NCBI GenBank assembly: GCA_905339405.1
Contig: CAJPGC010000028.1
Coordinates: 1 to 64,000, forward strand
Length of the DNA stretch: 64,000 bases
Direction: 5' to 3'
DNA from: an uncultured bacterium
GTDB lineage: Bacteria; Desulfobacterota; GWC2-55-46
Numbering within the stretch: the first letter of the stretch is position 1; each line of letters opens with the position of its first letter. Shown in pieces: positions 25,409 to 43,193 of this stretch. The position numbers were made by a program, and so were the translations under genes. The notes under the pieces are model-generated. The model ran no database searches, was not told the origin of the DNA, and saw nothing but the letters and a program-made list of their open reading frames with translations.

Positions 25409-26632
25409 TCAGTAGACGCTCTTCGCTTCGGAGAGCGCCTTGCCGCCCTTGCCGACCCAGGTGGTCGTCCAGCGGCGCTGGACAACCCTCATGACGAGGA
25501 ACACTACAGCGGCAAGTACGATGAAGGCTATGAACCCGGATGCGAAAGAGCCGGTGTACTGCTTGGACAGGCCCATCGCGTTGGGGATGAAAGCGCCGCC
25601 CAGGGCCCCTATCTCACCTATCATGCTTCCGGCCACGGCCGTGGTCGTGGGCCAGCGCAGCGGCACGAGCTGGAAGAGCGAGCCGTTGCCCATTCCGAGG
25701 AAGGCGAAGCAGATCATGAACAGCCCCGTCGTTACCGTGAGGGAGGGAGCGCCGCTCAGCAGGAGCATGACTACGATGACGCCTATGAATACCAGCGTCA
25801 GGGAGTTGATGCCGCCCCATTTGTCGGAGATGTAGCCGCCCACTATCCTGATGGCGCTGCCCATTACCGCCGCGAGCATCGTAAGCTGTCCGGCCTGTAC
25901 CTTTGTGACGCCGAACTGGTCATGGAAGAAAGTGGGCAGGAAGTTTGCCAGCCCGATGAAGCCGCCGAAGGTTATGATGTAGATGGCGTTGAACATCCAG
26001 CCGTCTTTTTCAACAAGGCAGCTGACAAGCTCTTTCAAGGTGTGGTGCTCCCTGTCAGGGGGCTCCTTGGCGAAGATAAGCATTATGAGGAAAGGCAGGA
26101 GCATCGTGAGTGCCGCGAAGCCGTAAACCGTCTGCCAGCCGTACTTCATCGCCAACGGAGGCGCGAAGAGCACCGCGAGGACCGTTCCGCTGTTGCCTGC
26201 TCCGGCTATACCCATCGCAAGACCCTTGTACTGCGGGGGGAACCATCCCGAACCGAGCGAGAGGGCGACGCCGAAAGACGCGCCTGCTATGCCGAGGAGG
26301 ATACCCATCGCCAGGACGTCGTCGTAGGTGTTGACAGCGTAGTACCCGTACAGCATCGCAACCAGTATCAGGCCCATCTCGACCAGGGCCGCGTTTTTCC
26401 TGCCGATGTACTGCGCCATGACGCCGAGAGGGAAACGCATGAGGGCGCCGGCCATGATGGGTATTGATATCATGAAGCCTTTTTGCGCCGGTGAAAGGTT
26501 GAACGCTTCGCTTATGAAGGGGGCCATGGCTCCGTTAAGAACCCAGATCGCAAAACAGAAGTCGAAATACAGAAATGAAGCAATGAGCGTCGGCACGTGG
26601 CCTGCTTTAGCGAACGCTTTCCAGTTTGCCAT
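25409..26632 (-). CDS. MFS transporter, NarK/NasA nitrate-nitrite transporter-like (407 aa)
   Basis: PFISEAFNLSPAQKGFMISIPIMAGALMRFPLGVMAQYIGRK ... GIAGAGNSGTVLAVLFAPPLA (NarK nitrate signature) ... GGYISDKWGG. Confidence 0.88.
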   Translation of the reverse strand: MANWKAFAKAGHVPTLIASFLYFDFCFAIWVLNGAMAPFISEAFNLSPAQKGFMISIPIMAGALMRFPLGVMAQYIGRKNAALVEMGLILVAMLYGYYAVNTYDDVLAMGILLGIAGASFGVALSLGSGWFPPQYKGLAMGIAGAGNSGTVLAVLFAPPLAMKYGWQTVYGFAALTMLLPFLIMLIFAKEPPDREHHTLKELVSCLVEKDGWMFNAIYIITFGGFIGLANFLPTFFHDQFGVTKVQAGQLTMLAAVMGSAIRIVGGYISDKWGGINSLTLVFIGVIVVMLLLSGAPSLTVTTGLFMICFAFLGMGNGSLFQLVPLRWPTTTAVAGSMIGEIGALGGAFIPNAMGLSKQYTGSFASGFIAFIVLAAVVFLVMRVVQRRWTTTWVGKGGKALSEAKSVY

Positions 26633-26814
26633 TTCTCTCTCCTTTGGAATTTGACGTGGCGGCTTTGAAACAGAAGGGAATTAAAGCGCCAAAAGAGAGC
26701 CGTATTTTTTTGGATGGATTATTGCTGGTTGCGCAGGCGCCAGGAAACGCGAGTGACCCCTGAAATATCAGCACTAAGCCAAAAAAATGCGACTGTGCCT
26801 TTCGGGTAACTCAT

Positions 26815-26842
26815 CGTTATATCCTGAGCGGTAGATATAGCG
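26815..26842. repeat. Imperfect inverted repeat CGTTATAT-N12-ATATAGCG (ModE-box-like half sites, wider spacing)
   Basis: Seen directly; lies in the predicted leader of the 407-aa narK-like gene. Confidence 0.35.
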
Positions 26843-26844
26843 GT

Positions 26845-26873
26845 GAGGAAGTGAATTCCCCATTCACTTCTTC
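26845..26873. repeat. Strong hairpin, 12-bp arms with a 5-nt loop
   Basis: GAGGAAGTGAAT-tcccc-ATTCACTTCTTC (one G.T pair); no following T-run on either strand. Confidence 0.75.
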
Positions 26874-26896
26874 GTTCTGATCGGATTGTTTAACTT

Positions 26897-26925
26897 AAAA
26901 TAGCAATACCAGGAAAAAATGTCAA
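26897..26925 (-). promoter_or_regulatory. Putative sigma70 promoter for the 407-aa narK-like gene
   Basis: Minus strand TTGACA-N17-TATTTT. Confidence 0.6.
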
Positions 26926-26930
26926 GCGAA

Positions 26931-26948
26931 ATGTGAGAGGCGTCACAT
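26931..26948. promoter_or_regulatory. CRP/FNR-superfamily-type operator (CRP/HcpR-like)
   Basis: Perfect palindrome aTGTGA-gaggcg-TCACAt between divergent promoters. Confidence 0.65.
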
Positions 26949-27002
26949 TCGCCGGGGCTGGAATATAGTTAAATCTCTAATGCCGGCTTAATCCAGCCCG
27001 AG

Positions 27003-27008
27003 TATAAT
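27003..27008 (+). promoter_or_regulatory. Putative -10 element upstream of micropeptide genes (weak -35)
   Basis: TATAAT 47 nt before the ATG at 27055; no good -35 hexamer at 17 nt. Confidence 0.45.
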
Positions 27009-27054
27009 GGAAACGTAACAAGGCAAGAAAAAAAGAAGAAAAGGAGGAAAGAAA

Positions 27055-27144
27055 ATGAACAGGACAGCCGAAATAATAGACCTGCTGGTGGCAGTCGGCA
27101 ACATAGCTGTAGCAAGCCTCCTGATCTTCATAGTGGGGCTGTAA
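27055..27144 (+). CDS. Predicted 29-aa single-TM micropeptide (not in ORF track)
   Basis: AAGGAGGAAAGAAAATG RBS/start; MNRTAEIIDLLVAVGNIAVASLLIFIVGL*. Confidence 0.6.
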   Translation: MNRTAEIIDLLVAVGNIAVASLLIFIVGL

Positions 27145-27255
27145 AAAAAGCGGAAGGTTTCAAACCTAATCTTCCCTTAATGTGCAAACGGGTAAGATGG
27201 TGTCTGGTAAGAGGTAATAATAATGACGGAATCTAACATTAACGGGAGGAAGCAG

Positions 27256-27354
27256 ATGAAAAAGGACATAATAGCAGACCTGTATTTTCCGCTTGCGTTC
27301 ATCTTCGGCCAGCTTGTAATAGCGATTGTAGCGGCTGCGTCGATAACCGCTTAA
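27256..27354 (+). CDS. Predicted 32-aa single-TM micropeptide (not in ORF track)
   Basis: GGGAGGAAGCAGATG RBS/start; MKKDIIADLYFPLAFIFGQLVIAIVAAASITA*. Confidence 0.6.
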   Translation: MKKDIIADLYFPLAFIFGQLVIAIVAAASITA

Positions 27355-27395
27355 CTGGCGGTTTTCACATGAGAAAACACAAGACGTACTGTTAA

Positions 27396-27425
27396 AGGGG
27401 GGGGTGTTGAGCCCTCCCTTTTTTC
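27396..27425 (+). terminator. Terminator-like hairpin after micropeptide genes
   Basis: AAGGGGGGGG-tgttgag-CCCTCCCTT followed by T-run (some G.U pairing). Confidence 0.6.
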
Positions 27426-28290
27426 ATTTCAATCCAAATTCGCCCCTCTAAAAACCTGAATCAAATCCAAAATGCATATTGAGAGCCACCTTTGCGTAAC
27501 ATGGCCGGATATTCGTGTTACTGAAAGGTAACACCGCTGGAATTGCTTGTTTTTCAAAGGCGATGCGGCGACCCGCTTGAGTATCACTTTCGTAGGTGTA
27601 ACTTTTTCGTAACGCGTGGGGTACATGAGTTTTTTTGACCACGAAAACTGGATTCTACAAAAAACATTAGAAAAACATGATGTTATCCTCCAATTCCGGC
27701 TTCTGCTTCGTTCTGGTATGCATATTGCAAAATATATCTGTTGAATCGACAAGCAGCAACGGACGCATGGGCGCCAGTGGCTGAGGAAAGGCTTGAAGGA
27801 AGGTTTTTTTGCGATGAGCGGCGGAAAAAGACCTGAACCGGAAAGTCTTCAGATTTTTTTTCAAATTCCTCGTCATTCAAGGCAGGTCCATGCTCCCTGC
27901 GTGCGGACATCCTTGATTTGCCTGGCAGGCCGGTAAAGCGGCCTGGCCTCTTTAGATGGCGTTTTCTTTCACATTCCATCCGGTTTGGGAAAAATACGCT
28001 TCATCGGCAGGGATGCCCCCAAGGGGATAAGTACCGTCAATTTTGGCCATGTCGCATGGCCGGCCCGTTTGTCCACAACCGGCGGGGTGCCAGTTAATCT
28101 GCACCCTGAAGGAGAGGCCGGGACGACCCGATAGGCCAGGGCTGTCATCTTTTATATGGATTCACGCGGCTGTATCGGGGAACTGATCCGCCCTTTTTGC
28201 AGGTTGTCGTCTCCTGGGCCCACGGCGGGCTTTCGGAGGCCTGGCGCCAGGGCCGCGCCATTATTTTGATGATTCTTCATAAGCCCTTCA

Positions 28291-28313
28291 AAGTAACAAT
28301 GCCATTGTTACTT
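28291..28313. repeat. Perfect inverted repeat AAGTAACAAT-gcc-ATTGTTACTT
   Basis: 10-bp arms, 3-nt spacer, in an otherwise gene-poor interval. Confidence 0.7.
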
Positions 28314-28691
28314 AATATATCAGTCAGTTGAAGTACTCTGGTTGCCAGCAGAACACCCCACAGTTTCGCAAGGCGTATGCTTTGCGTGCGCCAGGCGTTC
28401 CCTTTAGCCGTATGCGAGAGGGAAGGGATGAAAAAACATCCATCAAACGTCCATGTACAGGGAAAATCCTGTTCAGGCGCGCTGCCCGCCTTATCATTAA
28501 TATAGTCGGTGGGCGCACGGACTCTTGGGGTGTATCTGGCTAAAGGCGGTTTTCCGGGCCGGGCGGCTTTCGGAAGTGGAATTTTTCAGGGTGGGTAACC
28601 AGTTCGGCGATCCCATCATTAATGCCCGGGGAGGCTTTCTTTTGGCAGCCTGCAAGCCCTATTCGGGCGGTTCAGTACGGAGGTGGCCTTA

Positions 28692-29263: not shown

Positions 29264-30760
29264 ATGGGAGATAGGGAAAGAATGGGGTGGGGCGACCTGC
29301 TGAGCTTCGGCAGGCAGGATGTCGCCGCCCTGCACAAAACGTGGTTCGCCTATTTTCTCACCTTTTTCGTCTGGTTCAACATGGCCCCCCTGGCGACCAC
29401 CATCATCAAGACCTCTGTCCTGACGGCGGACGACCTCAAGCTGCTGGCCGTCTGCAACGTAGCTCTGACCGCTCCAAGCCGCTTCATCATAGGAATGCTC
29501 ACCGACAGGTTCGGCCCGAGGAACACCTTCACCGCTATCATGACCGCGATGTCGCTCCCCTGTTTCGCTTTCGCGTTTTCAGACACCTATACGCAGATGC
29601 TCGCTTCAAGGCTCATCCTTTCGATGGTCGGCACCGGCTTCGTCGTCGGCATACACATGACCTCGCTGTGGTCCAAGCCCAGGGACATCGGCTTCGCGCA
29701 GGGGGTGGAGGCCGGCCTTGGAAACTGGGGAGCTTCGATAGCGGCGATACTCTTGCCTGTAGCGGCGCTGAACCTGTTCGGCTCGTGGAGATACGCTGCC
29801 GCGGCAAGCGGCCTTGTAATGCTCATCTACGGTTTGTATTACAGGGCCTCTATTACTGACGGCCCCCAGGGAGCCTGCCGCAAGCCCGCCGGGGGCTCAG
29901 TCATAGAGGTCTCCACCTGGTGGGACATGATAAGCGCCATGTTCTGGATGGTGCCAGTGACCGGAGTGCTCGCGCTCGTCGTCTGGAGGCTTCGCGCGGT
30001 GGGTTTCCTGAGCGTCGAGGCGGCCGCTGCCGCGTACGCCGTAATAGGCGCGGCCGTGCTCTTCCAGGCGGGGCGTATAGCGTGGCGCAATTACCCATTG
30101 CTAAAGGAGGGCGTGCCAGAGGACGATAAGTACAGGTTCGCGGACGTAGGGGCGCTGTGTCTGTGCTTCGCGGCCTCGTTCGGCGCTGAGCTCGGCGTCA
30201 TCTCCATGCTCCCGCAGTTCTTCGAGAAGAACTTCAGCCTGAGCCCGCAGCTGGCGGGCCTCATGGCGGCCATGTTCGCGTTCATGAACATATTCTCGAG
30301 GTCGCTCGGGGGGCAGATATCGGAGAAGTGCCCTTCCAGGAGAGGTGCGATGCTCGTCTACCTGGCTGGCACCGGCGTTTCGTTCTTCCTCATGGGGCTC
30401 ATCGATTCAAACTGGCCGCTGTGGCTCGCTGCCGCTGTGACAATAGCGTGCGCGCTCTTTGTCACCGGCGCGTGCGGGGCCACGTTCGCCATCGTCCCGC
30501 TCATTAAGAGGCGCGTTACGGGACACATAACCGGGTATGTCGGGGCTTTCGGCAACGTCGGCGCGCTCGCGTACCTGGTAGCGTACACGTTCGTCGACGA
30601 CAGCCGGTTTTTCAATATCATGGGCGCCGCCGCGCTCTTTACGTTCATGTTCTGCTTTTTCTTCCTCAGGGAGCCTGCCGGTGCGTTTTCGCAGGAATAC
30701 CAGATAACGAGCGGCGGCAAGGCCGCCTTGAAGGGCCGCCCCCTGGTCCGGAAGACCTGA
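29264..30760 (+). CDS. MFS nitrate/nitrite transporter, NarK family (498 aa)
   Basis: WFAYFLTFFVWFNMAPLATTI ... GVEAGLGNWGASIAAILLPVAAL ... GYVGAFGNVGALAYLVAYTF (two NarK signatures). Confidence 0.9.
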   Translation: MGDRERMGWGDLLSFGRQDVAALHKTWFAYFLTFFVWFNMAPLATTIIKTSVLTADDLKLLAVCNVALTAPSRFIIGMLTDRFGPRNTFTAIMTAMSLPCFAFAFSDTYTQMLASRLILSMVGTGFVVGIHMTSLWSKPRDIGFAQGVEAGLGNWGASIAAILLPVAALNLFGSWRYAAAASGLVMLIYGLYYRASITDGPQGACRKPAGGSVIEVSTWWDMISAMFWMVPVTGVLALVVWRLRAVGFLSVEAAAAAYAVIGAAVLFQAGRIAWRNYPLLKEGVPEDDKYRFADVGALCLCFAASFGAELGVISMLPQFFEKNFSLSPQLAGLMAAMFAFMNIFSRSLGGQISEKCPSRRGAMLVYLAGTGVSFFLMGLIDSNWPLWLAAAVTIACALFVTGACGATFAIVPLIKRRVTGHITGYVGAFGNVGALAYLVAYTFVDDSRFFNIMGAAALFTFMFCFFFLREPAGAFSQEYQITSGGKAALKGRPLVRKT

Positions 30761-31703: not shown

Positions 31704-32336
31704 ATGGATTTAAGGAGTTGTAAGACAATCTTGGTGAAGGGACTGCAACTCGGGTTCGCGCTGAGTCTCGTTGCCGGCATTGCGCCTATGAAGGCCATTG
31801 CTGAAGACGCGGCTGCTGGTGCGGCTCCCGCTGATGCGGCGGCTGTTGAAGCCCCGGCTGAGGCTCAGGCCCCGGCCGAGACTGGTGACGCGGCGATCGG
31901 CAAGATGTACTTTACAGGCGAGAAGAGGTTTGAGAGCGGCGCCCCGGCGTGTATTTCCTGCCACAGCGTCAGCTACGGTTCTCTCAACGGCGGCGTGCTT
32001 GGTCCGAACCTGACCAAGGTTTATGCCGACGAGTCGAAGAACCCGCTTCTGAGCTCGGCCTGGATCAACGGCGGTTCCCCTGTGATGGCTCCCATCTTCA
32101 GCCAGAAGAACGTGACTGACGAGGAAGTCTCCCACTTGAGGGCGTTTTTCGCCGAGCAGTCCAAGGGTGAAGTAGCATCCTCCCAGACCGGCACTTTCAC
32201 CATCATCGGGTTAGGCGGCTTCGTAGGTATACTGATTGTCTTCAATATTATCTGGAGCGGCCGCTACAGAAACAGGAACAAAGGCACCGCCCACGATGCC
32301 CTTTGGAGAAACTACGGCGGAAAAGGAGGGAGGTAA
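31704..32336 (+). CDS. Membrane-anchored monoheme cytochrome c, first gene of the nar operon
   Basis: N-terminal hydrophobic/signal region, Ala/Pro/Glu linker, single CISCH heme motif, distal PVMAPIF Met ligand candidate, C-terminal TM (FTIIGLGGFVGILIVFNIIW); 4 nt from narG. Confidence 0.85.
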   Translation: MDLRSCKTILVKGLQLGFALSLVAGIAPMKAIAEDAAAGAAPADAAAVEAPAEAQAPAETGDAAIGKMYFTGEKRFESGAPACISCHSVSYGSLNGGVLGPNLTKVYADESKNPLLSSAWINGGSPVMAPIFSQKNVTDEEVSHLRAFFAEQSKGEVASSQTGTFTIIGLGGFVGILIVFNIIWSGRYRNRNKGTAHDALWRNYGGKGGR

Positions 32337-32340
32337 ATAG

Positions 32341-35300
32341 ATGGCTACCTGGATTCAAGACGAGATAAACCCCGGTAAAAGGGGTTGGGAAGAATATTAC
32401 AGGAACCGTTGGCAGTATGACAAGACCGTGAGGAGCACCCACGGCAACAACTGCACCGGCGGCTGTTCCTGGATGGTTTACGTAAAGGACGGCATCATCA
32501 CCTGGGAGTTGCAGGCTGTCGACTATCCGAAGCTGGACCAGTCGATCCCGCCTTACGAGCCGAGGGGCTGCCAGAGGGGTATATCTGCCTCCTGGTACGT
32601 CTACAGCCCGCTGCGTATCAAGTACCCGTATTGCCGCGGCATACTCCTGGACTCCTGGAAAGAAGCAAGGGCCAAGCATTCCGACCCTGTCGACGCCTGG
32701 AGGTCCATTGTCGAGAACGCCGAGCTTCACAAGAAGATCAAGTGGTCGAGGGGCAAGGGCGGCTTCCGCAGGTTTGATTGGGACACCGCGGCCGAGATAA
32801 TCACCGCAGCCCACATCTACACCATAAAGAAGTACGGTCCGGACAGAATCATCGCGTTCTCGCCGATCCCGGCCATGTCGCAGATCAGCTACGCTTCCGG
32901 CGCCCGCTACAACCAGCTCATCGGCGGCGTTCATCTGAGCTTCTATGACTACTACACCGACCTTCCGAGCGCCGAACCCGAAGTCTGGGGCGAGCAGACC
33001 GACTCCTGCGAAAGCGCTGACTGGTACAACGCCGGTTACGTGGTCCTGTCCGGAGCCAACCCGAACATGACCAGGACCGCCGACTGCCACTTCATCTCCG
33101 AGCTCAGGCACGGTGGAGCGAAGATGGTAGTTTGCGCGCCTGACTACTCTCAGGTCACGAAGTACGCCGACACCTGGGTACCCGTGAAGCCCGGTTCCGA
33201 CTCTGCCTTCTGGATGGCCATCAACCACGTCATCCTCAAGGAGTTCTACGTCGACAAGAAGACCCAGTACTTCGAGTCCTACGTGAAGCAGTTCACCGAC
33301 CTCCCGATGCTCGTCAAGCTCGAAAAGGGCAAGGACGGCTGGGAGCAGGGCCGTTTCCTTACGGCGCATGACCTTGCGGAGTACGACGGCGAGGACAACC
33401 CGGAATGGAAGCAGTGCATGTGGGACGAGATCACCGGCAAGGCCGTCGTAGTAAACGGCTCCGTGGGCTTCAGGTACCCCAACAAGCACGAGAACCACGG
33501 CAAGTGGAACCTCATGCTCAAGGAGTCCAGGACCCAGAAGAACATCACCCCGTCGCTGTCCGTCCTTGACCACAAGGAAGACGCGATAGAAGTGAACTTC
33601 TACGAGGTCGACAAGCCGGAGAAGTACAAGAGGCAGGTGCCTGTCAGGTACGTGCAGACCAAGGAAGGCAAGCAGCCTGTCGCGACCGTATTCGACCTCA
33701 AGATCGCCCATTGCGGCGTCTCGAGGAAGGGCCTTACGGGCGACTACTGCAGGAACTACGATGACGACAGGGGCTTCTCTCCCGCGTGGCAGGAGAAGTA
33801 CACCGGCATCGGACGCGACACCGTAATCCAGATCGCCAGGGAGTTCGCCAACAACGCGGACGCGACCAAGGGCCGCTCGATGATCATCACCGGATCGAGC
33901 TACAACCACTGGTACCACTCCAACCTGCTGTACAGGACCGCCATGGACGCTCTCATGCTTTGCGGTTCCATAGGCAGGAACGGCGGCGGTCTGCAGCACT
34001 ACGTCGGCCAGGAAAAGCTCGCCATGTTCGACTCTTGGGGCCAGATAGCCCATTCGTTGGACTGGATCAGGCCTCCCAGACTCATGAGCGGCCCGTGCTT
34101 CTGGTATTCCACGACCGGCATGTACAAGTACGACGGCGCCATAGCCGAGTACCACAACGTCCCGGACAAGAACAAGCTCGAGTTCCAGCATACCCACGAC
34201 TACAACACAAGGGCCGTAAGGCTGGGCTGGATGCCGTGCTTCCCGCAGTTCAACAAGAGCTCCATCGCCATGGTCGAGGAAGCCCAGAGGGCCGGCGCGA
34301 AGAACGACGCCGAAATAATCGACTATGTCGTGAAGCAGCTCAAGAGCGGCGCGCTCGAGTTCTCCATACAGGACCCGGACGCTCCGGAGAACTGGCCGAG
34401 AGTCTGGTTCATATGGAGGGCGAACGCGCTTGGTTCTTCCGCCAGGGGCCAGGAGTACTTCCTCAGGCACGTCCTCGGAACGCATAACAGCGTCATCGCG
34501 GACGAAGTCGCCAAGCCGTTCATCAAGGAGTCGAAGTACAGGGAGTCCCCGCTTGGCAAGCTCGACCTGCTGGTCGACCTCAACATGCGTATGAACACGA
34601 CCCCGACGTACTGCGATATCGTCCTCCCGACCGCTCACTGGTACGAGAAGGAAGACATCAACACCACCGAGCTCCACTCCTTCGTCCATCCCATGGGCGC
34701 GGCCGTTCAGCCGAACTGGGAAGCGAAGACCGACTGGGATGCCTTCAAGTTCATCTCGAAGAAGTTCTCCGAGCTGGCCAAGAAGCACTTCCAGAAGCCC
34801 GTCAAGGATATCGTCATGAACCCGCTTATGCACGATACCCCGGGCGAGATAGCCCAGCCGGCCACCAAGGGCGTGCTGGACTGGAAGAAGGGCGAGTGCG
34901 AGGCGATTCCTGGTAAGACGATGCCGACCTTCGCCATCGTGGAGAGGGATTACACCCAGATCGACAAGCAGTACACCTCGGTCGGACCCCTCCAGAAGGG
35001 CAAGTACGGCTTCCACGGAATCATGCTCGAAGGCAAGGAGCTCTATGAGAACTACCTCAGCCAGGAGCACATAGAGAAGAAGGAAGTCAACGGCCAGAAG
35101 CTCATCTCCCTCGAAACCGCCAAGGACGCTGCGAACTTCGTTCTCGCGTTCTCCGGCGCCACGAACGGTGAAGTCTGCTTCAGGCAGTGGTGGGAAGAGG
35201 AGCATCACACGGGTCTCCATGGCCACGAGTACCTCGAAGCCAGGAAACAGGCCCGCGCGGTATGCCCCGAAGTCAAGTACCTCATACCTGACGAAAGGGT

Positions 35301-36069
35301 ACACGGCCTCGCTCACGAGATGGGCAGCGGCAACAGGAACGTCTCCATGACTTACGACGACATCGTCGCTCAGCCGAGGAGATGGCTCACCAGCGCGCTG
35401 TGGACGGGCGACAACAGAAGGGGCAGGGCTTACGGTACCTGGACCATCCAGACCGAGCAGCTGGTGCCCTGGAGGACGCTTTCCGGCCGTCAGCACACTT
35501 ATCTTGACCACCCGGTCTACCTGGACTTCGGCGAAGCTCTCGCGACCGCCAAGCACAGGCTGAACCCGGCCAAGATGAACGAGGTGCAGAAGTCCGACAA
35601 GACCGACGCGCTCCACCTCAACTACATCACGCCGCACAGCAAGTGGGCCATTCACTCCACCCACTACGACAACCTCAGGATGCTCACGCTGTCCAGGGGA
35701 GGCAACTCCATCTGGATCAACGACAGGGATGCTGAGAGCGTAGGCATAAAGGACAACGACTGGGTCGAGGCGTACAACGACAACGGCGTGTATGTTTCCC
35801 GTGCCGTAGTCAGCGCCAGGATACCGTCCGGCTCCTCCTTCGCGTACCACTCTCAGGAAAGGACGATCAACGTCCCGAAATCCGAGCAGAGGAACAAGAT
35901 AAGGGGTGGATACCATAACTCACTCACCAGGCAGAGGCTTAAACCGCAGCTCATGACCGGCGGATACGGCCAGTTCTCCTACGGCTTCAACGCGTGGGGC
36001 CCGATCCCGATCATCAGGGATACGACGGTGCTGGTGAGGAAAATGAGAAACCAGGAGGTGAAGTGGTAA
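32341..36069 (+). CDS. narG: Respiratory nitrate reductase alpha subunit
   Basis: RNRWQYDKTVRSTHGNNCTGGCSWMVYVKDGIITWE; SFYDYYTDLPSAEPEVWGEQTDSCESADWYN; ITGSSYNHWYHSNLLYR; end-to-end resemblance to E. coli NarG. Confidence 0.97.
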   Translation: MATWIQDEINPGKRGWEEYYRNRWQYDKTVRSTHGNNCTGGCSWMVYVKDGIITWELQAVDYPKLDQSIPPYEPRGCQRGISASWYVYSPLRIKYPYCRGILLDSWKEARAKHSDPVDAWRSIVENAELHKKIKWSRGKGGFRRFDWDTAAEIITAAHIYTIKKYGPDRIIAFSPIPAMSQISYASGARYNQLIGGVHLSFYDYYTDLPSAEPEVWGEQTDSCESADWYNAGYVVLSGANPNMTRTADCHFISELRHGGAKMVVCAPDYSQVTKYADTWVPVKPGSDSAFWMAINHVILKEFYVDKKTQYFESYVKQFTDLPMLVKLEKGKDGWEQGRFLTAHDLAEYDGEDNPEWKQCMWDEITGKAVVVNGSVGFRYPNKHENHGKWNLMLKESRTQKNITPSLSVLDHKEDAIEVNFYEVDKPEKYKRQVPVRYVQTKEGKQPVATVFDLKIAHCGVSRKGLTGDYCRNYDDDRGFSPAWQEKYTGIGRDTVIQIAREFANNADATKGRSMIITGSSYNHWYHSNLLYRTAMDALMLCGSIGRNGGGLQHYVGQEKLAMFDSWGQIAHSLDWIRPPRLMSGPCFWYSTTGMYKYDGAIAEYHNVPDKNKLEFQHTHDYNTRAVRLGWMPCFPQFNKSSIAMVEEAQRAGAKNDAEIIDYVVKQLKSGALEFSIQDPDAPENWPRVWFIWRANALGSSARGQEYFLRHVLGTHNSVIADEVAKPFIKESKYRESPLGKLDLLVDLNMRMNTTPTYCDIVLPTAHWYEKEDINTTELHSFVHPMGAAVQPNWEAKTDWDAFKFISKKFSELAKKHFQKPVKDIVMNPLMHDTPGEIAQPATKGVLDWKKGECEAIPGKTMPTFAIVERDYTQIDKQYTSVGPLQKGKYGFHGIMLEGKELYENYLSQEHIEKKEVNGQKLISLETAKDAANFVLAFSGATNGEVCFRQWWEEEHHTGLHGHEYLEARKQARAVCPEVKYLIPDERVHGLAHEMGSGNRNVSMTYDDIVAQPRRWLTSALWTGDNRRGRAYGTWTIQTEQLVPWRTLSGRQHTYLDHPVYLDFGEALATAKHRLNPAKMNEVQKSDKTDALHLNYITPHSKWAIHSTHYDNLRMLTLSRGGNSIWINDRDAESVGIKDNDWVEAYNDNGVYVSRAVVSARIPSGSSFAYHSQERTINVPKSEQRNKIRGGYHNSLTRQRLKPQLMTGGYGQFSYGFNAWGPIPIIRDTTVLVRKMRNQEVKW

Positions 36070-36070
36070 T

Positions 36071-37591
36071 ATGGATCTCAGAGCTCAACTTTCAATGAGT
36101 TTTCATATGGACAAGTGCATCGGCTGCCATACCTGCAGCGTGTCCTGCAAGAACGTGTGGACATCGCGCAGAGGCGCCGAGTACATGTGGTGGAACAACG
36201 TCGAGACCAAACCCGGCGCCGGCTACCCCCTCACCTGGGAAGACCAGGAGAGGTACAGGGGCGGTTGGGAAGTCTCCGGCGGGTCACTGAGGCTTAAGCT
36301 CCTCAAGGGCCCCGGGAAGATAAGGACGCTGGCGAACATATTCTTCCAGCCGAACCTTCCGACGATAGACGATTACTACGAGCCGTTCACCTACGACTAT
36401 CAGAACCTGTTCAACGCTCCCGCGGGCGATGACCAGCCGACCGCAAGGCCGCGCTCGCTCATCACCGGCGAGTTCATGGAGAAGATAGCCCTCGGACCGA
36501 ACTGGGACGACGACATGGGCGGTTCGCCCCTGTACGCGGCGAACGACCCGAACCTCAAGGGCCTCTCGGAGTCCCAGAAGGAGATGCTGACCAAGTTCCA
36601 CAAGCTCTTCTTCTTCTACCTCCCGAGGATCTGCAACCACTGCCTCAACCCGGCTTGCGTAGCGTCCTGCCCGTCAGGCGCCATCTACAAGAGGGGCGAG
36701 GACGGCATAGTCCTGATAGACCAGGACACCTGCCGCGCCTGGAGGTTCTGCGTCTCTGCTTGCCCGTACAAGAAGCCCTACTACAACTGGGCGAACGGCA
36801 AGTCCGAGAAGTGTATCTTCTGCTATCCGAGGACCGAGACCGGCCAGGCCAACGCCTGCGCCCATGCCTGCACCGGCAGGATCAGGTTCGTCGGCGTGCT
36901 CTTCTATGACGCTGACAGGATAGAGGAGGTCGCAAAGACCCCGGACGAGAGACTCGTGGACGCCATGAGGGACATCGTCCTCGATCCTAACGACCCCAGG
37001 GTCATCGAAGAAGCCAGGAAGCAGGGCATCGACGAGAACTGGATAGTGGCGGCTCAGAACTCCCCTTCGTACAATCTGTTCAAGAAGTGGAGAATCGCGA
37101 TGCCCAACCATCCGGAGTTCAGGACTCTTCCGATGAACTTCTACGTTCCGCCTCTTTCGCCGGTCCTTCACAACGCGAAGGCCGAGAACGGCGGCACCTT
37201 CGACAGCGAGTCCATGGAGTTCTTCAACTCCATAGACAAGATGAGGATACCCGTAAGATACCTCGCTAACATGCTTAGCGCCGGTAACGAGCAGGTTGTC
37301 ATCGAGTCGCTCAAGAAGCAGATGGCTGTAAGGCTGTGGGTACGTCAGCAGAGAGTCGGCGACATCGGCGACAGCGCCGCCAAGGCCGCTCTCTCGGCAG
37401 TTGGCCTCACCCCTGAGGAAGCCTTCGAGATCTACAAGCTGGTCTCGCTGGGCACCTTCCAGGAGAGGTTCGTAATACCCGAGACCCATCGCGAGACGAT
37501 GACCACGGTCGACCCCAGGCTCATGTACGAGAAGAGGGGCACGGTCGGTTTCGGTTCCAAGAAGCAGGAACTCGTCTCGAGGCAGTGGTAA
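36071..37591 (+). CDS. narH: Respiratory nitrate reductase beta subunit
   Basis: [64 protein letters not shown]-type; [15 protein letters not shown] (Trp-containing 3Fe-4S site). Confidence 0.97.
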   Translation: [506 protein letters not shown]

Positions 37592-37594
37592 TCG

Positions 37595-38143
37595 GTGGGA
37601 ACCGGAAAGAACATATACGGGCTTCTTGCCGGGCTGCTTGAGCACCCGGGGGAGGATATCAAGATAAAGGCCGAGCAGTGCATCAAGGCCCTGGCCGATT
37701 ATCCGCAGTATCCTCCCGAGATCGCAGAGGAGCTGAAAAAGTTTCAGAAGGACCTGGAGCACATCCCCCTTGATGACATCAAGGGGGTGTACTCCTACAC
37801 CTTCGAACTTTCGAGCGACTTCACGATGGATATGGGCTACCATATCTTCGACGGGTTCAGGCGCTCGAACAGCCTCGCGGCCATCAAGGGCATGTATATG
37901 GACAAGGGTTTCCCATTCGAAGAGCGCGCTGGAGGAGAGCTGCCTGACAATCTCCCGGTAATACTGCACTTCATGTCGTTCACGGACGACGATGACCTGC
38001 TGAAGAACTTCCGGGAGACGTTTCTTGTCAAGGCGCTCGAGAAGCTCCAGAAAAACTTCGAGAGAAACAAGAAGAACCTCTACTGGCACGTAATCAACGC
38101 CGTTTACAGAATCATCGACAAAGACGTAAAAGGAGGAGAGTAA
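37595..38143 (+). CDS. narJ: Nitrate reductase assembly chaperone (GTG start)
   Basis: LLAGLLEHPGEDI...; position between narH and narI; YTFELSSDFTMDMGYHIFDGF. Confidence 0.88.
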   Translation: MGTGKNIYGLLAGLLEHPGEDIKIKAEQCIKALADYPQYPPEIAEELKKFQKDLEHIPLDDIKGVYSYTFELSSDFTMDMGYHIFDGFRRSNSLAAIKGMYMDKGFPFEERAGGELPDNLPVILHFMSFTDDDDLLKNFRETFLVKALEKLQKNFERNKKNLYWHVINAVYRIIDKDVKGGE

Positions 38144-38841
38144 TGGACAATGTCCTGTTTGGCGTGATGCCGTACATCTTGTTGATGACGGCTATCGTCG
38201 GTGCAATATGGAGATTCAGAAGCAACAAGTACACGTGGTCGTCACAGTCGTCCCAGTTCCTTGAGAACAAGACCCTGTTTTTCGGGTCCTTCCCCTGGCA
38301 CTACGGGATCATAACGATCCTCCTGGGACACATACTGGGACTGTTCATACCGAAGAGCATCGTGCTCTGGAACTCGGTTCCCCTGAGGCTCTATGTGCTC
38401 GAGCTTACCGCCCTGGCCCTCGGCTTCCTCGCCCTGTTCGGTCTTCTGGCCCTTATCTACAGAAGGCTTACGAACAGCAGGGTGAAGGCCGTAACTTCCG
38501 GCTGGGACGTGCTCGTGCTCATCATCCTCCTCATACAGGTGGTTACCGGCATCGGAAACGCCATCCTCTACAGGTGGGGTTCCAACTGGTACGTCGCGAC
38601 CGCTGTACCCTGGATGTGGTCGGTCCTGAAGCTGCAGCCCAACGTTGACCTCGTGGCCAATCTTCCTCTCATCACGAAGACCCACATATTCAACGCGCTG
38701 CTCTTCATCGGGCTTATCCCGTTCTCGAGGCTCGCGCACTTCGTGGTCATCAACCCCTACAAGTACCTCGTACGCCCCTATCAGGTCGTAAGGTGGTACC
38801 GCAAGGGCGGCCCGACCGTGAACATCGTTTCGTACAAGTAA
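38143..38841 (+). CDS. narI: Respiratory nitrate reductase gamma subunit (cytochrome b)
   Basis: FFGSFPWHYGIITILLGHILGLFIP ... PLITKTHIFNALLFIGLIPFSRLAHFV; five TM segments with His ligands. Confidence 0.95.
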   Translation: MDNVLFGVMPYILLMTAIVGAIWRFRSNKYTWSSQSSQFLENKTLFFGSFPWHYGIITILLGHILGLFIPKSIVLWNSVPLRLYVLELTALALGFLALFGLLALIYRRLTNSRVKAVTSGWDVLVLIILLIQVVTGIGNAILYRWGSNWYVATAVPWMWSVLKLQPNVDLVANLPLITKTHIFNALLFIGLIPFSRLAHFVVINPYKYLVRPYQVVRWYRKGGPTVNIVSYK

Positions 38842-38968: not shown

Positions 38969-40678
38969 ATGGCGAAAATACAAAAATGGGAGCCGGAAAA
39001 TGAACAGTTCTGGCGTGAAACCGGCAGCTCACTGGCGTGGCGCACGTGCGGTATAACCACGTTCTCGCTCATATTCTCATTCGCGACATGGTTTGTCATG
39101 AGCGCCGTGGTCGTAAGGCTTCCTAACATAGGCTTCAAATTCACCACAATGGAACTGTTCTGGCTAGCGGCCATACCGGGCTTCGCTTCCGGTATACTGA
39201 GGCTCATTCACTCCTTCTTTATCCCCGTCCTTGGAACACGACCGGTCGTGAGCATCGCGACCATCATCAAGCTCATTCCCATGGTATGGCTCGGTTACGC
39301 GGTTCAGGACACTTCTACGCCGTGGTCAACCTTCATGATAATCGGCTTCCTCAGCGGTATGGGCGGCGGAGACTTCTCCTCGTACATGCCTTCAACCAGC
39401 ATATTTTTCCCCAAGAGGCTTCAGGGCCTCGCGATGGGCATCCAGGCCGGTATCGGCAACTTCGGCGTCAGCGTCGTTCAGTTCGTGACGCCGTGGATAG
39501 TCGGTTTCGTACTTGTCGGCGGAGCCTACGGCCTGCCGCAGGTATTCACCAAAGCCGACCCTGTTAAAAAGGGCACGGTAACAGTGACGAAGGACGCCTC
39601 CGGCGTAGTTACCGACGTCGTTGTCAATGACCCTGCGCTCGCGGCCGCCGTGGTCGTCACCAGGGACGCCTCCGGCGTTCTCACCGGTGTTGCGCTCCAG
39701 GAAACCGAAACGGTAAAGATCCTGAAAGCCGATGTTGTAAAGGACGAGGCTACCGGCAAGATAACCGCCGTGAAAAAGTCAGAAGGCTACCTCCTTGACG
39801 TCAAGAAGAACGACGCTGGCGCGATCGTGGATGTGACCGTCAAGAAGGGCATCAAGAAGGCGATGTGGCTTCATAACTCCGCGTTCTGGTATGTGCCTGT
39901 CCTCATCCTCGCCTTCATACTCAGCGTTTTCGGCCTCAAGAGCATAGACCCTGCGGCGCTCGGCATCAAGGGCGGCGCCTTCAAGAAGATGTTCCAGATA
40001 CTCAGCTCCAAGTACAGGGCCCGCACCCATACCTGGAACTGCACCATAACCTACATAGCTTCATTCGGTTCTTTTGCCGGTTACGCTGCCGCTTTCCCGA
40101 TGATGATCAAGATCATCTACGGCGGCTTTGACGGCGCTCCGGACCCGCTGAAGTACGCTTTCTTCGGCCCGCTCATCGGCGGAGTTTCCCGCGCGGTCAC
40201 AGGCGGCATCTTTGACAAGATCGGCGGCAGCAAGGGCATGCACTGGTGCCTCATCGGCCAGATAATCGGCTGTTTGGCCCTTATTTTCGGCGGCTACCTT
40301 ACTCCGACCACTCTTGAGCAGTTCCCGATGTTCGTTTACATCATGCTCTGGATATTCCTGATGACCGGCATCAACAACGCCGCCACCTTCCGCCAGTACC
40401 CGATAGTGTTCGCGTATTCGCCCGCCCAGGGCGCGCAGATGCTTGGCTGGACCGGCGCGTGGGCGGCATTCGGCCCGTTCATATGGACCAGCCTCATCGG
40501 TATGTCCATAACGAAGACAGGCAGCGCCATAACGTTCTTTGTTGGCGCCGCTATCTTCTACGCCTACGCCTTCATCCTCAACTGGTGGTACTACACCCGT
40601 AAGGGGTCCGAAAGGTACGATTACGGCAGCAGCGGCGGCACGTGGTGGGACAAGGCCAACAAGTCCGACTTCCAGTAA
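38969..40678 (+). CDS. narK: MFS nitrate/nitrite transporter, NarK family, with large periplasmic-loop insertion (569 aa)
   Basis: GLAMGIQAGIGNFGVSVVQFVTPWIVGFVLVGG (TM5 signature) then ~110-aa non-MFS insert, then TM6 onward; GGIFDKIGGSKGMHW. Confidence 0.9.
   Translation: MAKIQKWEPENEQFWRETGSSLAWRTCGITTFSLIFSFATWFVMSAVVVRLPNIGFKFTTMELFWLAAIPGFASGILRLIHSFFIPVLGTRPVVSIATIIKLIPMVWLGYAVQDTSTPWSTFMIIGFLSGMGGGDFSSYMPSTSIFFPKRLQGLAMGIQAGIGNFGVSVVQFVTPWIVGFVLVGGAYGLPQVFTKADPVKKGTVTVTKDASGVVTDVVVNDPALAAAVVVTRDASGVLTGVALQETETVKILKADVVKDEATGKITAVKKSEGYLLDVKKNDAGAIVDVTVKKGIKKAMWLHNSAFWYVPVLILAFILSVFGLKSIDPAALGIKGGAFKKMFQILSSKYRARTHTWNCTITYIASFGSFAGYAAAFPMMIKIIYGGFDGAPDPLKYAFFGPLIGGVSRAVTGGIFDKIGGSKGMHWCLIGQIIGCLALIFGGYLTPTTLEQFPMFVYIMLWIFLMTGINNAATFRQYPIVFAYSPAQGAQMLGWTGAWAAFGPFIWTSLIGMSITKTGSAITFFVGAAIFYAYAFILNWWYYTRKGSERYDYGSSGGTWWDKANKSDFQ
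39584..39841 (+). repeat. About four degenerate tandem coding repeats inside narK (units near 39584, 39656, 39734, 39800)
   Basis: VTKDASGVVTDVVV / VTRDASGVLTGVAL / VVKDEATGKITAVK / VKKNDAGAIVDVTV; 15-nt exact match GGACGCCTCCGGCGT at 39592 and 39664. Confidence 0.8.
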
Positions 40679-40745
40679 GTAGCTGACCGGGCAAGCTGTA
40701 AAAGCATCTCAGGCGGTCACAAGCCTGCGTGATTGATGGTAACGA

Positions 40746-40780
40746 GCATGGGGGAGAGTTTTCTCCCCCATGCTTTTTTT
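40746..40780 (+). terminator. Rho-independent terminator after narK
   Basis: GCATGGGGGAGA-gttt-TCTCCCCCATGC + T7. Confidence 0.95.
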
Positions 40781-41343: not shown

Positions 41344-41658
41344 ATGGGAAAGCATGACAGGCTGGACACTTTTGGCGTAACTGTTATCGACAAGGATGCG
41401 TACGCGAAAAAACAGGACTATGTAGTTAAAAACTGCAAATGCCCCACCTGTCCCACCTATGTCGCCGGGGACGCTCCGGTCGGCTACTGTTTTCCGCTCA
41501 TAGGCACGAGCGCCAAGATACAGAAGGAAGTGAACTGTATCTGCGGGACCTGTCCCATTTACAAGGAATACGAGCTCAACCATTCTTTTTATTGCACAAG
41601 GTGCTCCCAGGTCTGCCAGATGCTCAAGACCGAGGGCGCTGCCGCCCAGGGCACATAG
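41344..41658 (+). CDS. Cys-rich small protein, DUF2769-like
   Basis: CKCPTCPTYVAGDAPVGYCFPLIGTSAKIQKEVNCICGTCPIYKEYELNHSFYCTRCSQVC; 10+ Cys in CxCxxC patterns; RBS cggagg. Confidence 0.75.
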   Translation: MGKHDRLDTFGVTVIDKDAYAKKQDYVVKNCKCPTCPTYVAGDAPVGYCFPLIGTSAKIQKEVNCICGTCPIYKEYELNHSFYCTRCSQVCQMLKTEGAAAQGT

Positions 41659-41674
41659 CCCTTATACCCGCTCA

Positions 41675-41711
41675 CTGGAAGGGGCGCGCGCCCCTTCCAG
41701 ACAAGCTTTTT
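41675..41711 (+). terminator. Rho-independent terminator after DUF2769-like gene
   Basis: 26-nt perfect palindrome CTGGAAGGGGCGCGCGCCCCTTCCAG, then acaagcTTTTT. Confidence 0.75.
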
Positions 41712-41848
41712 CATCTGAAAACCCCTCTGAAATCCCCTGAAAAACCCTTTTCTTCCAACCCTTTTGGTCTGGACAAAACCGGCCCAGTTGTAGTAATATC
41801 AATTAACACCCAAAATTGGTGAATAATTCTATTTCGAGGAGATTTGTA

Positions 41849-42355
41849 ATGGAGATTACCACCCCGGAGCAGGCCAAGGAAACCGTCAAGAAGTGGCTGG
41901 AGGAGAACCACCACGAAGTAAAGGAAATAACCGACGAAAACGCCACTTTTCATTTCGAGATCGACTACCCCCTCGGCTCCATGAAGAGGCAGAGGGTCAT
42001 CCAGCCCAAGGAGTTCCCGTCCCTTATCGTCGTGCTTAACGGCGTCAGCATCGCGGCGGAGCACGCCGAGAAGCTCAAGTCCATGCAGCCCAACGACAGG
42101 GAAGCTTTCTACAACGAGATAAGGAAGGACCTCCTGTTCCTCCAGAACAGCTACGACCTCAACGCCGACGAGGCCGGGGTTGCCAAGCAGGTGCAGTTCT
42201 CTTACGAGTTCTACTACGACGCTCTTACCAAGACCAAGCTTTACGAAGGGCTTCTTCTCAACCACAGGACGCTTCTTTACATAATAACAAAGTTCAACGA
42301 CGAGTTCGGCATGCCGATGATGCGCGACCAGAAGGGCGACGTAGGCCACGCGTAA
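41849..42355 (+). CDS. DUF2299-like protein of unknown function
   Basis: MEITTPEQAKETVKKWLEENHHEVKEITDENATFHFEIDYPLGSMKRQRVIQPKEFPSLIVVLNGV; family name from memory, unverified. Confidence 0.6.
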   Translation: MEITTPEQAKETVKKWLEENHHEVKEITDENATFHFEIDYPLGSMKRQRVIQPKEFPSLIVVLNGVSIAAEHAEKLKSMQPNDREAFYNEIRKDLLFLQNSYDLNADEAGVAKQVQFSYEFYYDALTKTKLYEGLLLNHRTLLYIITKFNDEFGMPMMRDQKGDVGHA

Positions 42356-42380
42356 TGCCGGCTTAACCAGGAGGGTTCCC

Positions 42381-43193
42381 ATGGCTCCACAACTGCTCGA
42401 GATAATGTACAAATGCATGCATAACTCCTGTTACGTCAACTGCAGGGAAGGTATCCTGACGGTAGAGGAGGGAAGGTTCAAGGAGCTGTCTTCCAAGGAC
42501 GAGGAAGGCGTTTTCAAGAGCCCCCGCGGCATTTGCAGGATGGGTTTCTCCCAGAACTTCCAGGTCGTGAAGATGCAGCATCTCGGCTCGGGCGTACCCT
42601 TTGACCAGGGCACTTCCCAGCTCGACCCTTCTGAGAACCCGCTCATCATCCTCGTCGAGGAGCACAAGGCGATAAACGCCAGGCTCGAGAAGATAGAGGA
42701 GCACCTGAAGAAAAGGGACTTGGACGCCCTGTGGGTCGCCACCAGGGAACTCGAGAACGACCTTGTGCTCCATTCCGGCATCAAGGAAGAGGAAGTCCTG
42801 TTCGGACTTACCCAGGGCCTGCTGCCCTTCGGCGAGACGCTCCAGGACATCATCAAGGAGGAGCACAGGGAGATAATAACCCTGCTGCACAACTTCAGGG
42901 AGGCCCTCGAGATAGGCGAGCTGAACGACGGCATAATAGACTCCGTCATCGTGAGCCTCAGGGGCCACATAAGGAAGGAAGACCAGGAGTTCTTCGAGAT
43001 AATAGACAAGTGCCTTAACGACGAGATAAGGCTCAACATCACCGCCGGGATGAAGGCCGTTGAAGAGAAGTTCGTCAGGGTCGAAGCCGGGGTAAGGAAG
43101 ATGAACGTCAAGCAGCTCTCGAAGCAGGAGCACTACCATGACCAGGTCATGGCCATGAGGGAGGCCGGCTGCGATACCTGCTGCGGCCACTGA
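42381..43193 (+). CDS. Hemerythrin/HHE-domain protein with Cys-rich N- and C-termini
   Basis: LVEEHKAINARLEKIEEHL ... LVLHSGIKEEEVLF ... IIKEEHREIITLLHNF ... LRGHIRKEDQEFFEI (HHE ligand pattern); N-term YKCMHNSCYVNCREG, C-term CDTCCGH. Confidence 0.85.
   Translation: MAPQLLEIMYKCMHNSCYVNCREGILTVEEGRFKELSSKDEEGVFKSPRGICRMGFSQNFQVVKMQHLGSGVPFDQGTSQLDPSENPLIILVEEHKAINARLEKIEEHLKKRDLDALWVATRELENDLVLHSGIKEEEVLFGLTQGLLPFGETLQDIIKEEHREIITLLHNFREALEIGELNDGIIDSVIVSLRGHIRKEDQEFFEIIDKCLNDEIRLNITAGMKAVEEKFVRVEAGVRKMNVKQLSKQEHYHDQVMAMREAGCDTCCGH

Follow-up and report, generated by a model that had tools for sequence, protein, structure and literature searches.

Evidence for modular exchange of a predicted periplasmic β-hairpin domain among NarK2-type nitrate/nitrite transporters

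The narK gene and its locus

The window analyzed here is a stretch of 64,000 nucleotides from an uncultured bacterium of the phylum Desulfobacterota. It carries a narGHJI-narK cluster of which narK is the last gene, and the following features were assigned in and around this cluster:

29264-30760, + strand: NarK1-type MFS transporter, insert-less (TIGR00886, E=1.8e-76)
31704-32336, + strand: small c-type cytochrome 5' of narG, a possible but not conserved partner
32341-36069, + strand: narG (homologues in the same gene order elsewhere)
36071-37591, + strand: narH (gene order in homologous loci)
37595-38143, + strand: narJ (gene order in homologous loci)
38143-38841, + strand: narI (gene order in homologous loci)
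38969-40678, + strand: narK, NarK2-type nitrate/nitrite MFS transporter of 569 aa, insert-bearing (E. coli NarK-like)
39413-39505, + strand: TM5 with nitrate signature, residues 149-179 (AlphaFold helix at residues 149-179)
39875-39934, + strand: TM6, residues 303-322 (AlphaFold)
40744-40775, + strand: terminator-like hairpin of 14 pairs 3' of narK, likely transcript end (consensus match only)

NarK is the textbook nitrate/nitrite exchanger, known mainly from work on E. coli and Paracoccus. The window NarK matches E. coli NarK (4u4t, E=5.8e-64) in two blocks, residues 3-189 and 298-548, the alignment being interrupted exactly at residues 190-297; this bears out an earlier sequence-only reading of the window, according to which canonical NarK has a short loop here. 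An AlphaFold model, computed from an alignment of 64 homologues, has the 12-TM MFS fold of NarK (TM-score 0.83-0.90 to target against 4u4w, 4u4v and 4iu9, E down to 2.1e-24). The nitrate signature GIGNFGVSVVQ in TM5 aligns to the E. coli motif, and the substrate arginines R78 (TM2) and R408 (TM8) are invariant in the 64 homologues. The protein thus shares the MFS core, the nitrate signatures and the TM2/TM8 arginines with E. coli NarK/NarU (4u4t, 4u4v, 4u4w, 4jr9, and 4iu8), which differ in having no domain between TM5 and TM6. The TIGR00886 model matches residues 29-502 (E=2.4e-68; model positions 5-367/368) with 230.9 bits, below its curated cut-off of 311.7, and we therefore file the protein as a NarK-family relative of the NarK2 type and not as a certified TIGR00886 member; the insert-less NarK1 of the window likewise stays under this cut-off (257.6 bits). 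Judged by these alignments, the transporter core is that of an ordinary NarK2 relative, for which nitrate/nitrite exchange is predicted.

Sequence and predicted structure of the insert

The interruption corresponds to an insert of ~105 aa located between TM5 and TM6, in which we identified the following features:

39530-39871, + strand: predicted periplasmic β-hairpin insert domain, residues 188-301 (domain profile matches only NarK)
39578-39625, + strand: unit 1, predicted hairpin, residues 204-219, turn DASG at residue 209 (strands 204-208 and 214-219)
39592-39606, + strand: 15-nt exact match GGACGCCTCCGGCGT, first copy
39650-39697, + strand: unit 2, predicted hairpin, residues 228-243, turn DASG at residue 233 (strands 228-232 and 238-243)
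39664-39678, + strand: 15-nt exact match GGACGCCTCCGGCGT, second copy, 72 nt from the first
39731-39775, + strand: unit 3, predicted hairpin, residues 255-269, turn DEATG at residue 259 (strands 255-258 and 265-269); absent from 3-unit relatives in the alignments
39779-39865, + strand: unit 4, predicted hairpin, residues 271-299, turn NDAG at 281-284, running into TM6 (strands 271-280 and 286-299)

The sequence-only reading had described a tandem-repeat domain of ~110 aa at this place, with units 22-26 aa apart, and our measurements agree: there are four units spaced by 24, 26-27, and 22 aa, and the best internal ungapped score of the insert is 61, against 29.3 +/- 5.5 in 1000 residue shuffles, none of which scored as high. 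The turn glycine of unit 4 (G284) is invariant in 64 proteins, while linkers vary and total insert length ranges from 88 to 133 aa across relatives. The insert is Lys-rich, with K/R slightly above D/E (16 vs 14 in the window; 18 vs 14-15 in others), aromatic, Cys, and His residues are almost absent, and K292, K296, and K297 are invariant in the family around the window. Its composition is no different from that of the rest of narK (GC 0.570 and 0.568 for insert and rest, respectively).

The model predicts one β-hairpin per sequence unit, four in the window, with pairing read from strand order, much as the sequence-only reading had guessed from the repeat pattern; pLDDT is 82-90 through the insert in the full-length model and averages 94.8 for the insert alone, so that the prediction is a confident four-hairpin array and not a disordered, repeat-less segment. 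The loop is placed on the periplasmic side by homology to NarK crystal structures and NarK topology. Sequence and model alike indicate that the insert is a genuine, separately folding domain.

Searches for a known fold returned only scattered Pfam best matches (E >= 0.001), no match in the PDB by sequence (E >= 0.8) or by fold (best E 0.42), and no known fold among the predicted viral models of BFVD, where MORN-type proteins matched weakly (E about 1-3). As in MORN-type single-layer arrays, the unit has ~23 aa and forms one predicted hairpin; however, none of the 64 inserts has the MORN motif (YxGxxxxGxxxGxG-type) or a Pfam MORN match, and the window insert has no Pfam match to this family. 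SV2A and SV2B, which have a beta-rich luminal domain in a TM loop, were among the MFS matches of the full-length model in the fold search. They resemble the window protein as MFS proteins with a beta-rich extracytoplasmic loop domain, but theirs is of another fold, lies in the TM7-TM8 loop and belongs to eukaryotic vesicle proteins. Among NarK-like nitrate transporters, CRNA of Aspergillus nidulans has an insertion of ~90 residues (residues 221-310; PMC5217062); that loop is predicted to be intracellular, whereas the window insert lies between TM5 and TM6 and is periplasmic by homology.

The 15-nt match had been taken as a sign of recent duplication. The match is present, but the age it was thought to imply is not borne out: it is mostly accounted for by the common DASGV peptide together with codon bias (3% by codon usage alone), and units correspond by position across phyla, with between-genome scores of 41-55 on the diagonal vs 10-28 off it. 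Since the units are orthologous by position between genomes, the array is older than its spread over phyla, and since Tandem Repeats Finder detected no repeat in the DNA of the array, it is also old and degenerate. Units 1 and 2 of the window are more similar than average (score 49 vs a mean of 31), an excess that may reflect local homogenization, at most small.

Distribution among NarK proteins

At least five phyla are represented among the 64 NarKs that carry the same insert. Among relatives of the window genome, we found it in NarKs of its family; within the order, one genome from a different family has two copies, and one further genome of the class also carries it. A scan of named GTDB genomes followed by alignment placed it in Burkholderiales, Gallionella relatives, Thiobacillus, Rhodocyclaceae, and Thiothrix, and further in Geobacter/Desulfuromonadales, Nitrospirota, Bdellovibrionota, and Myxococcales. 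NarK of E. coli has no insert, nor do the plasmid copies of Thermus and Roseinatronobacter or the paralogues adjoining insert-bearing copies in the same operons. The one pattern scan from which prevalence can be read gave about 67 repeat-type sequences in the best 80 of 397 relatives detected.

In a core tree with the insert masked, every insert-bearing sequence falls in one group (support 91; repeat type 100). When 395 genomes of the phylum were searched, only NarK-sized frames, or NarK cut by a contig end, matched the domain profile; nothing else significant was found in the window's own genome, and no match was found on 72,556 plasmids. The insert marks one clade of NarK2-type transporters: it is not a feature of most NarK2 proteins, which would have made it a known one, and its presence in independent genomes rules out that it is private to the window genome or an assembly artefact.

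In one genome (G009; L012 / L074:3433-5208), the insert of the insert-bearing narK is interrupted by an in-frame TAG near the position of window residues 250-254; this copy is either a pseudogene or affected by a sequencing error. We also identified another NarK-like family, of ~537-565 aa, in which additional hydrophobic sequence follows TM6 and resembles an added TM hairpin (L031, L033-L036, L056:7449-9143, L068:7077-8741, L080:7421-9088, and L097:7699-9312).

Probable exchange of insert classes between transporter cores

Repeat inserts have either three units (3-unit class, ~89 aa) or four (4-unit class, ~110 aa); the culturable Roseateles asaccharophilus DSM 25082 and Inhella gelatinilytica 4Y10, for example, have 4-unit inserts. 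Mapped onto the core tree, class state requires 10 changes, six of them forced by strongly supported branches, and monophyly of the 3-unit forms is rejected on the core alignment (AU p=3.6e-29; beta/Geobacter set, p=1.5e-9). In an insert tree built on the 80 columns common to both classes, 3-unit inserts form one clade (99.8). Three groupings are in turn rejected by this tree: the L052/L056/L080 clade of the core tree (p=1e-5), L086 together with the Burkholderiales to which its core is related (p=0.0015) and, less strongly, the window together with L043 (p=0.015). Since these groups were chosen once the trees had been seen, the p-values are only indicative.

Pairwise comparisons give the same picture. 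At 88-91% core identity, inserts are 75% identical within a class and 46% between classes. The window and L043, of the same genus and different class, share 92% aa and 88% DNA identity in the core, and 46% aa and 58% DNA identity in the insert. The clearest mosaic of the set is the Hylemonella sequence L086: compared with the 4-unit Burkholderiales sequences L064, L070, and L082, its core DNA is 86% identical and its insert DNA 57-58% (Fisher p below 1e-20), whereas compared with Rhodocyclaceae L068 its insert DNA is 85% and its core 81% identical. Sliding identities switch at residues ~185 and ~280, and the narK1 gene next to the insert-bearing copy is of native, host type. Class-diagnostic residues are at background level outside residues ~190-300; within the insert, an apparent shift of ~1 residue between classes in the alignment inflates the class signal at columns 202-208, of which the block-wise DNA mosaic of L086 is independent.

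The 3-unit inserts share the diagnostic residues 273N, 278L/I, and 298D/E/Q across phyla and form one clade on the common columns, which rules out slippage or independent unit deletions as the source of the two classes. It should be noted that nearly all sequences in this analysis are MAGs. The parental sequences, however, share only 75-85% DNA identity at the transitions, a divergence that speaks against assembler chimeras. Together, these comparisons support the exchange of insert classes as a module, with breakpoints at the insert edges. Divergent alleles also exist outside the two main classes, as in the betaproteobacterial L093:5787 and L095:5694, both 3-unit, with cores 87% and inserts 40% identical.

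An unrelated domain at the same position in Bacteroidota

Thirteen Bacteroidota NarKs (L110-L122, e.g., L115:5547-5855) carry an insert of ~100 aa at the same TM5-TM6 position that bears no visible resemblance to the β-hairpin insert. MgtE_N (PF03448) is matched by all 11 distinct inserts (E <= 0.05, best 1.9e-12), L115 scores 33.9 bits against a curated cut-off of 25.9, and a profile search matches the solved MgtE structure 8gps (E=8.3e-6). In MgtE itself, MgtE_N is cytoplasmic; in these transporters, the all-alpha MgtE_N-like domain, otherwise cytoplasmic, apparently lies in the periplasm. Since this domain sits at the same place and appears unrelated to the window's β-hairpin insert, it is the position, and not one fold, that would be used.

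A search of the open-access literature for a NarK with an inserted or periplasmic domain found nothing, and neither the hairpin domain and its exchange as a cassette nor the MgtE_N-like alternative appears to have been described.

Selection, candidate partners, and possible role

In close pairs, dN/dS of the insert is mostly 0.1-0.7, about twice that of the core; the insert is maintained by purifying selection and evolves faster than the core. narGHJI lies beside narK in nearly all loci with enough flank, the exceptions within the flanks covered being L098, L101, and L104.

Several candidate partners were considered. Many insert-bearing genomes of the family have no NirS, several nearly complete ones included, and its occurrence does not match the 3-/4-unit class; NirS as a universal partner is not supported. 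The sequence-only reading had suggested NarI or the cytochrome; the cytochrome half of this proposal is weakened, as the operon cytochrome is rarely conserved next to insert-bearing NarKs, while NarGHI would be a candidate. Both NirS and the operon cytochrome are thus unlikely as universal partners. The NarK1 neighbor tracks the insert weakly (partial Mantel r=0.17, 4 of 999) and is at most a weak driver of class swaps. No NrfA turned up anywhere in the family of the window genome. As a separate observation, NirS is encoded by all five family genomes that have an insert-less NarK paralogue (G005, G014, G019, G024, and G026), but by only part of the insert-bearing ones.

We interpret the insert as a periplasmic domain anchored on either side by TM5 and TM6 in an otherwise ordinary NarK2-type nitrate/nitrite antiporter. 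Its 3- or 4-hairpin classes appear to pass from one transporter backbone to another through homologous recombination, the breakpoints lying at the insert edges. As a specificity module of the outer face, the domain may bind some partner or component of the envelope close to the NarGHI/NarK site, and this binding would place the transporter or tune its gating; a cassette swap could then re-match NarK to another partner or to other conditions, with nitrate and nitrite transport still carried out by the conserved core. Overall, we tentatively favor the reading that the insert is an exchangeable periplasmic module with a docking or regulatory role, deduced from context, in the nitrate-respiration machinery, because narGHJI lies beside narK in nearly all loci and because NarK2 of P. 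aeruginosa has been reported to bind NorC in a membrane denitrification complex (PMC5658584), so that NarK2 is able to join such assemblies. Against this stand the faster evolution of the insert relative to the core and the fact that E. coli NarK works without it. More speculatively, the TM5-TM6 loop of respiratory NarK might be a general socket for interchangeable periplasmic modules, whether β domains of 3 or 4 hairpins or, in Bacteroidota, an MgtE_N-like domain, that are traded between species by recombination; the outer face would then be a plug-in determinant of specificity for a nitrate-respiration assembly or sensor not described so far.

The main rival to the docking or regulatory module, which we consider rather unlikely, is a lid over the outward-facing cavity that acts on gating or selectivity with no partner, tuning affinity or nitrate/nitrite exchange, for instance through lysines that attract anions, the 3- and 4-hairpin forms being kinetic variants. 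The tethering to both TM5 and TM6, the Lys-rich composition with its invariant K292, K296, and K297 in the window's family, and the scarcity of aromatic, Cys, and His residues that would point to a cofactor or carbohydrate site fit such a lid; however, the domain carries little net charge, there is no obvious need for a lid to be separately folded and exchangeable, and an all-alpha domain occupies the same site in Bacteroidota.

It is improbable that the insert never moved between species and that the classes descend from old 3-unit and 4-unit paralogues whose cores were homogenized by gene conversion before differential loss. The same tree conflict would result, tandem narK copies are common in these loci, and one genome (G044) has two insert-bearing copies. 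Yet no examined genome holds both classes (the two copies of G044 are both 4-unit; others pair one insert-bearing with one insert-less copy), and the insert DNA of L086 is at least as close to L068 as its core despite faster insert evolution, which fits a recent transfer of the insert.

Near-neutral padding, in an external loop permissive to repeats and indels, would account for a rate above that of the core, the variable linkers and lengths, and the insert-less E. coli NarK; it is made quite improbable by the confident fold, the invariant turn glycine, a dN/dS well below 1, and the retention of the domain in all clade members found. Finally, an arms race, in which phages, bacteriocins, or contact-dependent toxins enter via periplasmic loops and cassette exchange provides escape, would match modular replacement with edge breakpoints and divergent inserts on similar cores (L093/L095; L057/L087), but is very unlikely given two main classes across phyla instead of many alleles, purifying selection inside the insert, and no NarK-using agent found in this analysis or, to our knowledge, elsewhere.

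The interchangeability of the insert suggests a so far undescribed job for the outer face of NarK. A conserved, confidently folded, and unannotated domain, predicted to be periplasmic, is part of NarK in many environmental nitrate reducers, including Gallionella relatives, Thiobacillus, Geobacter, Burkholderiales, and groundwater lineages, and cassette exchange together with the replacement in Bacteroidota provides a natural allele-swap set for asking what this face touches.

Other features of the locus

A 1.9-kb stretch at window positions ~26780-28680 has no convincing ORF and no Rfam match. On the 3' side of narK, a DUF2769 gene and two further genes (41344-43193), the last of them hemerythrin-like by eye, keep their order in relatives of several phyla. 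Another MFS transporter is encoded at 25409-26632 (- strand) and shares 71-75% local identity with transporter genes directly 5' of narK in Bacteroidota loci, suggesting possible horizontal transfer of this gene.
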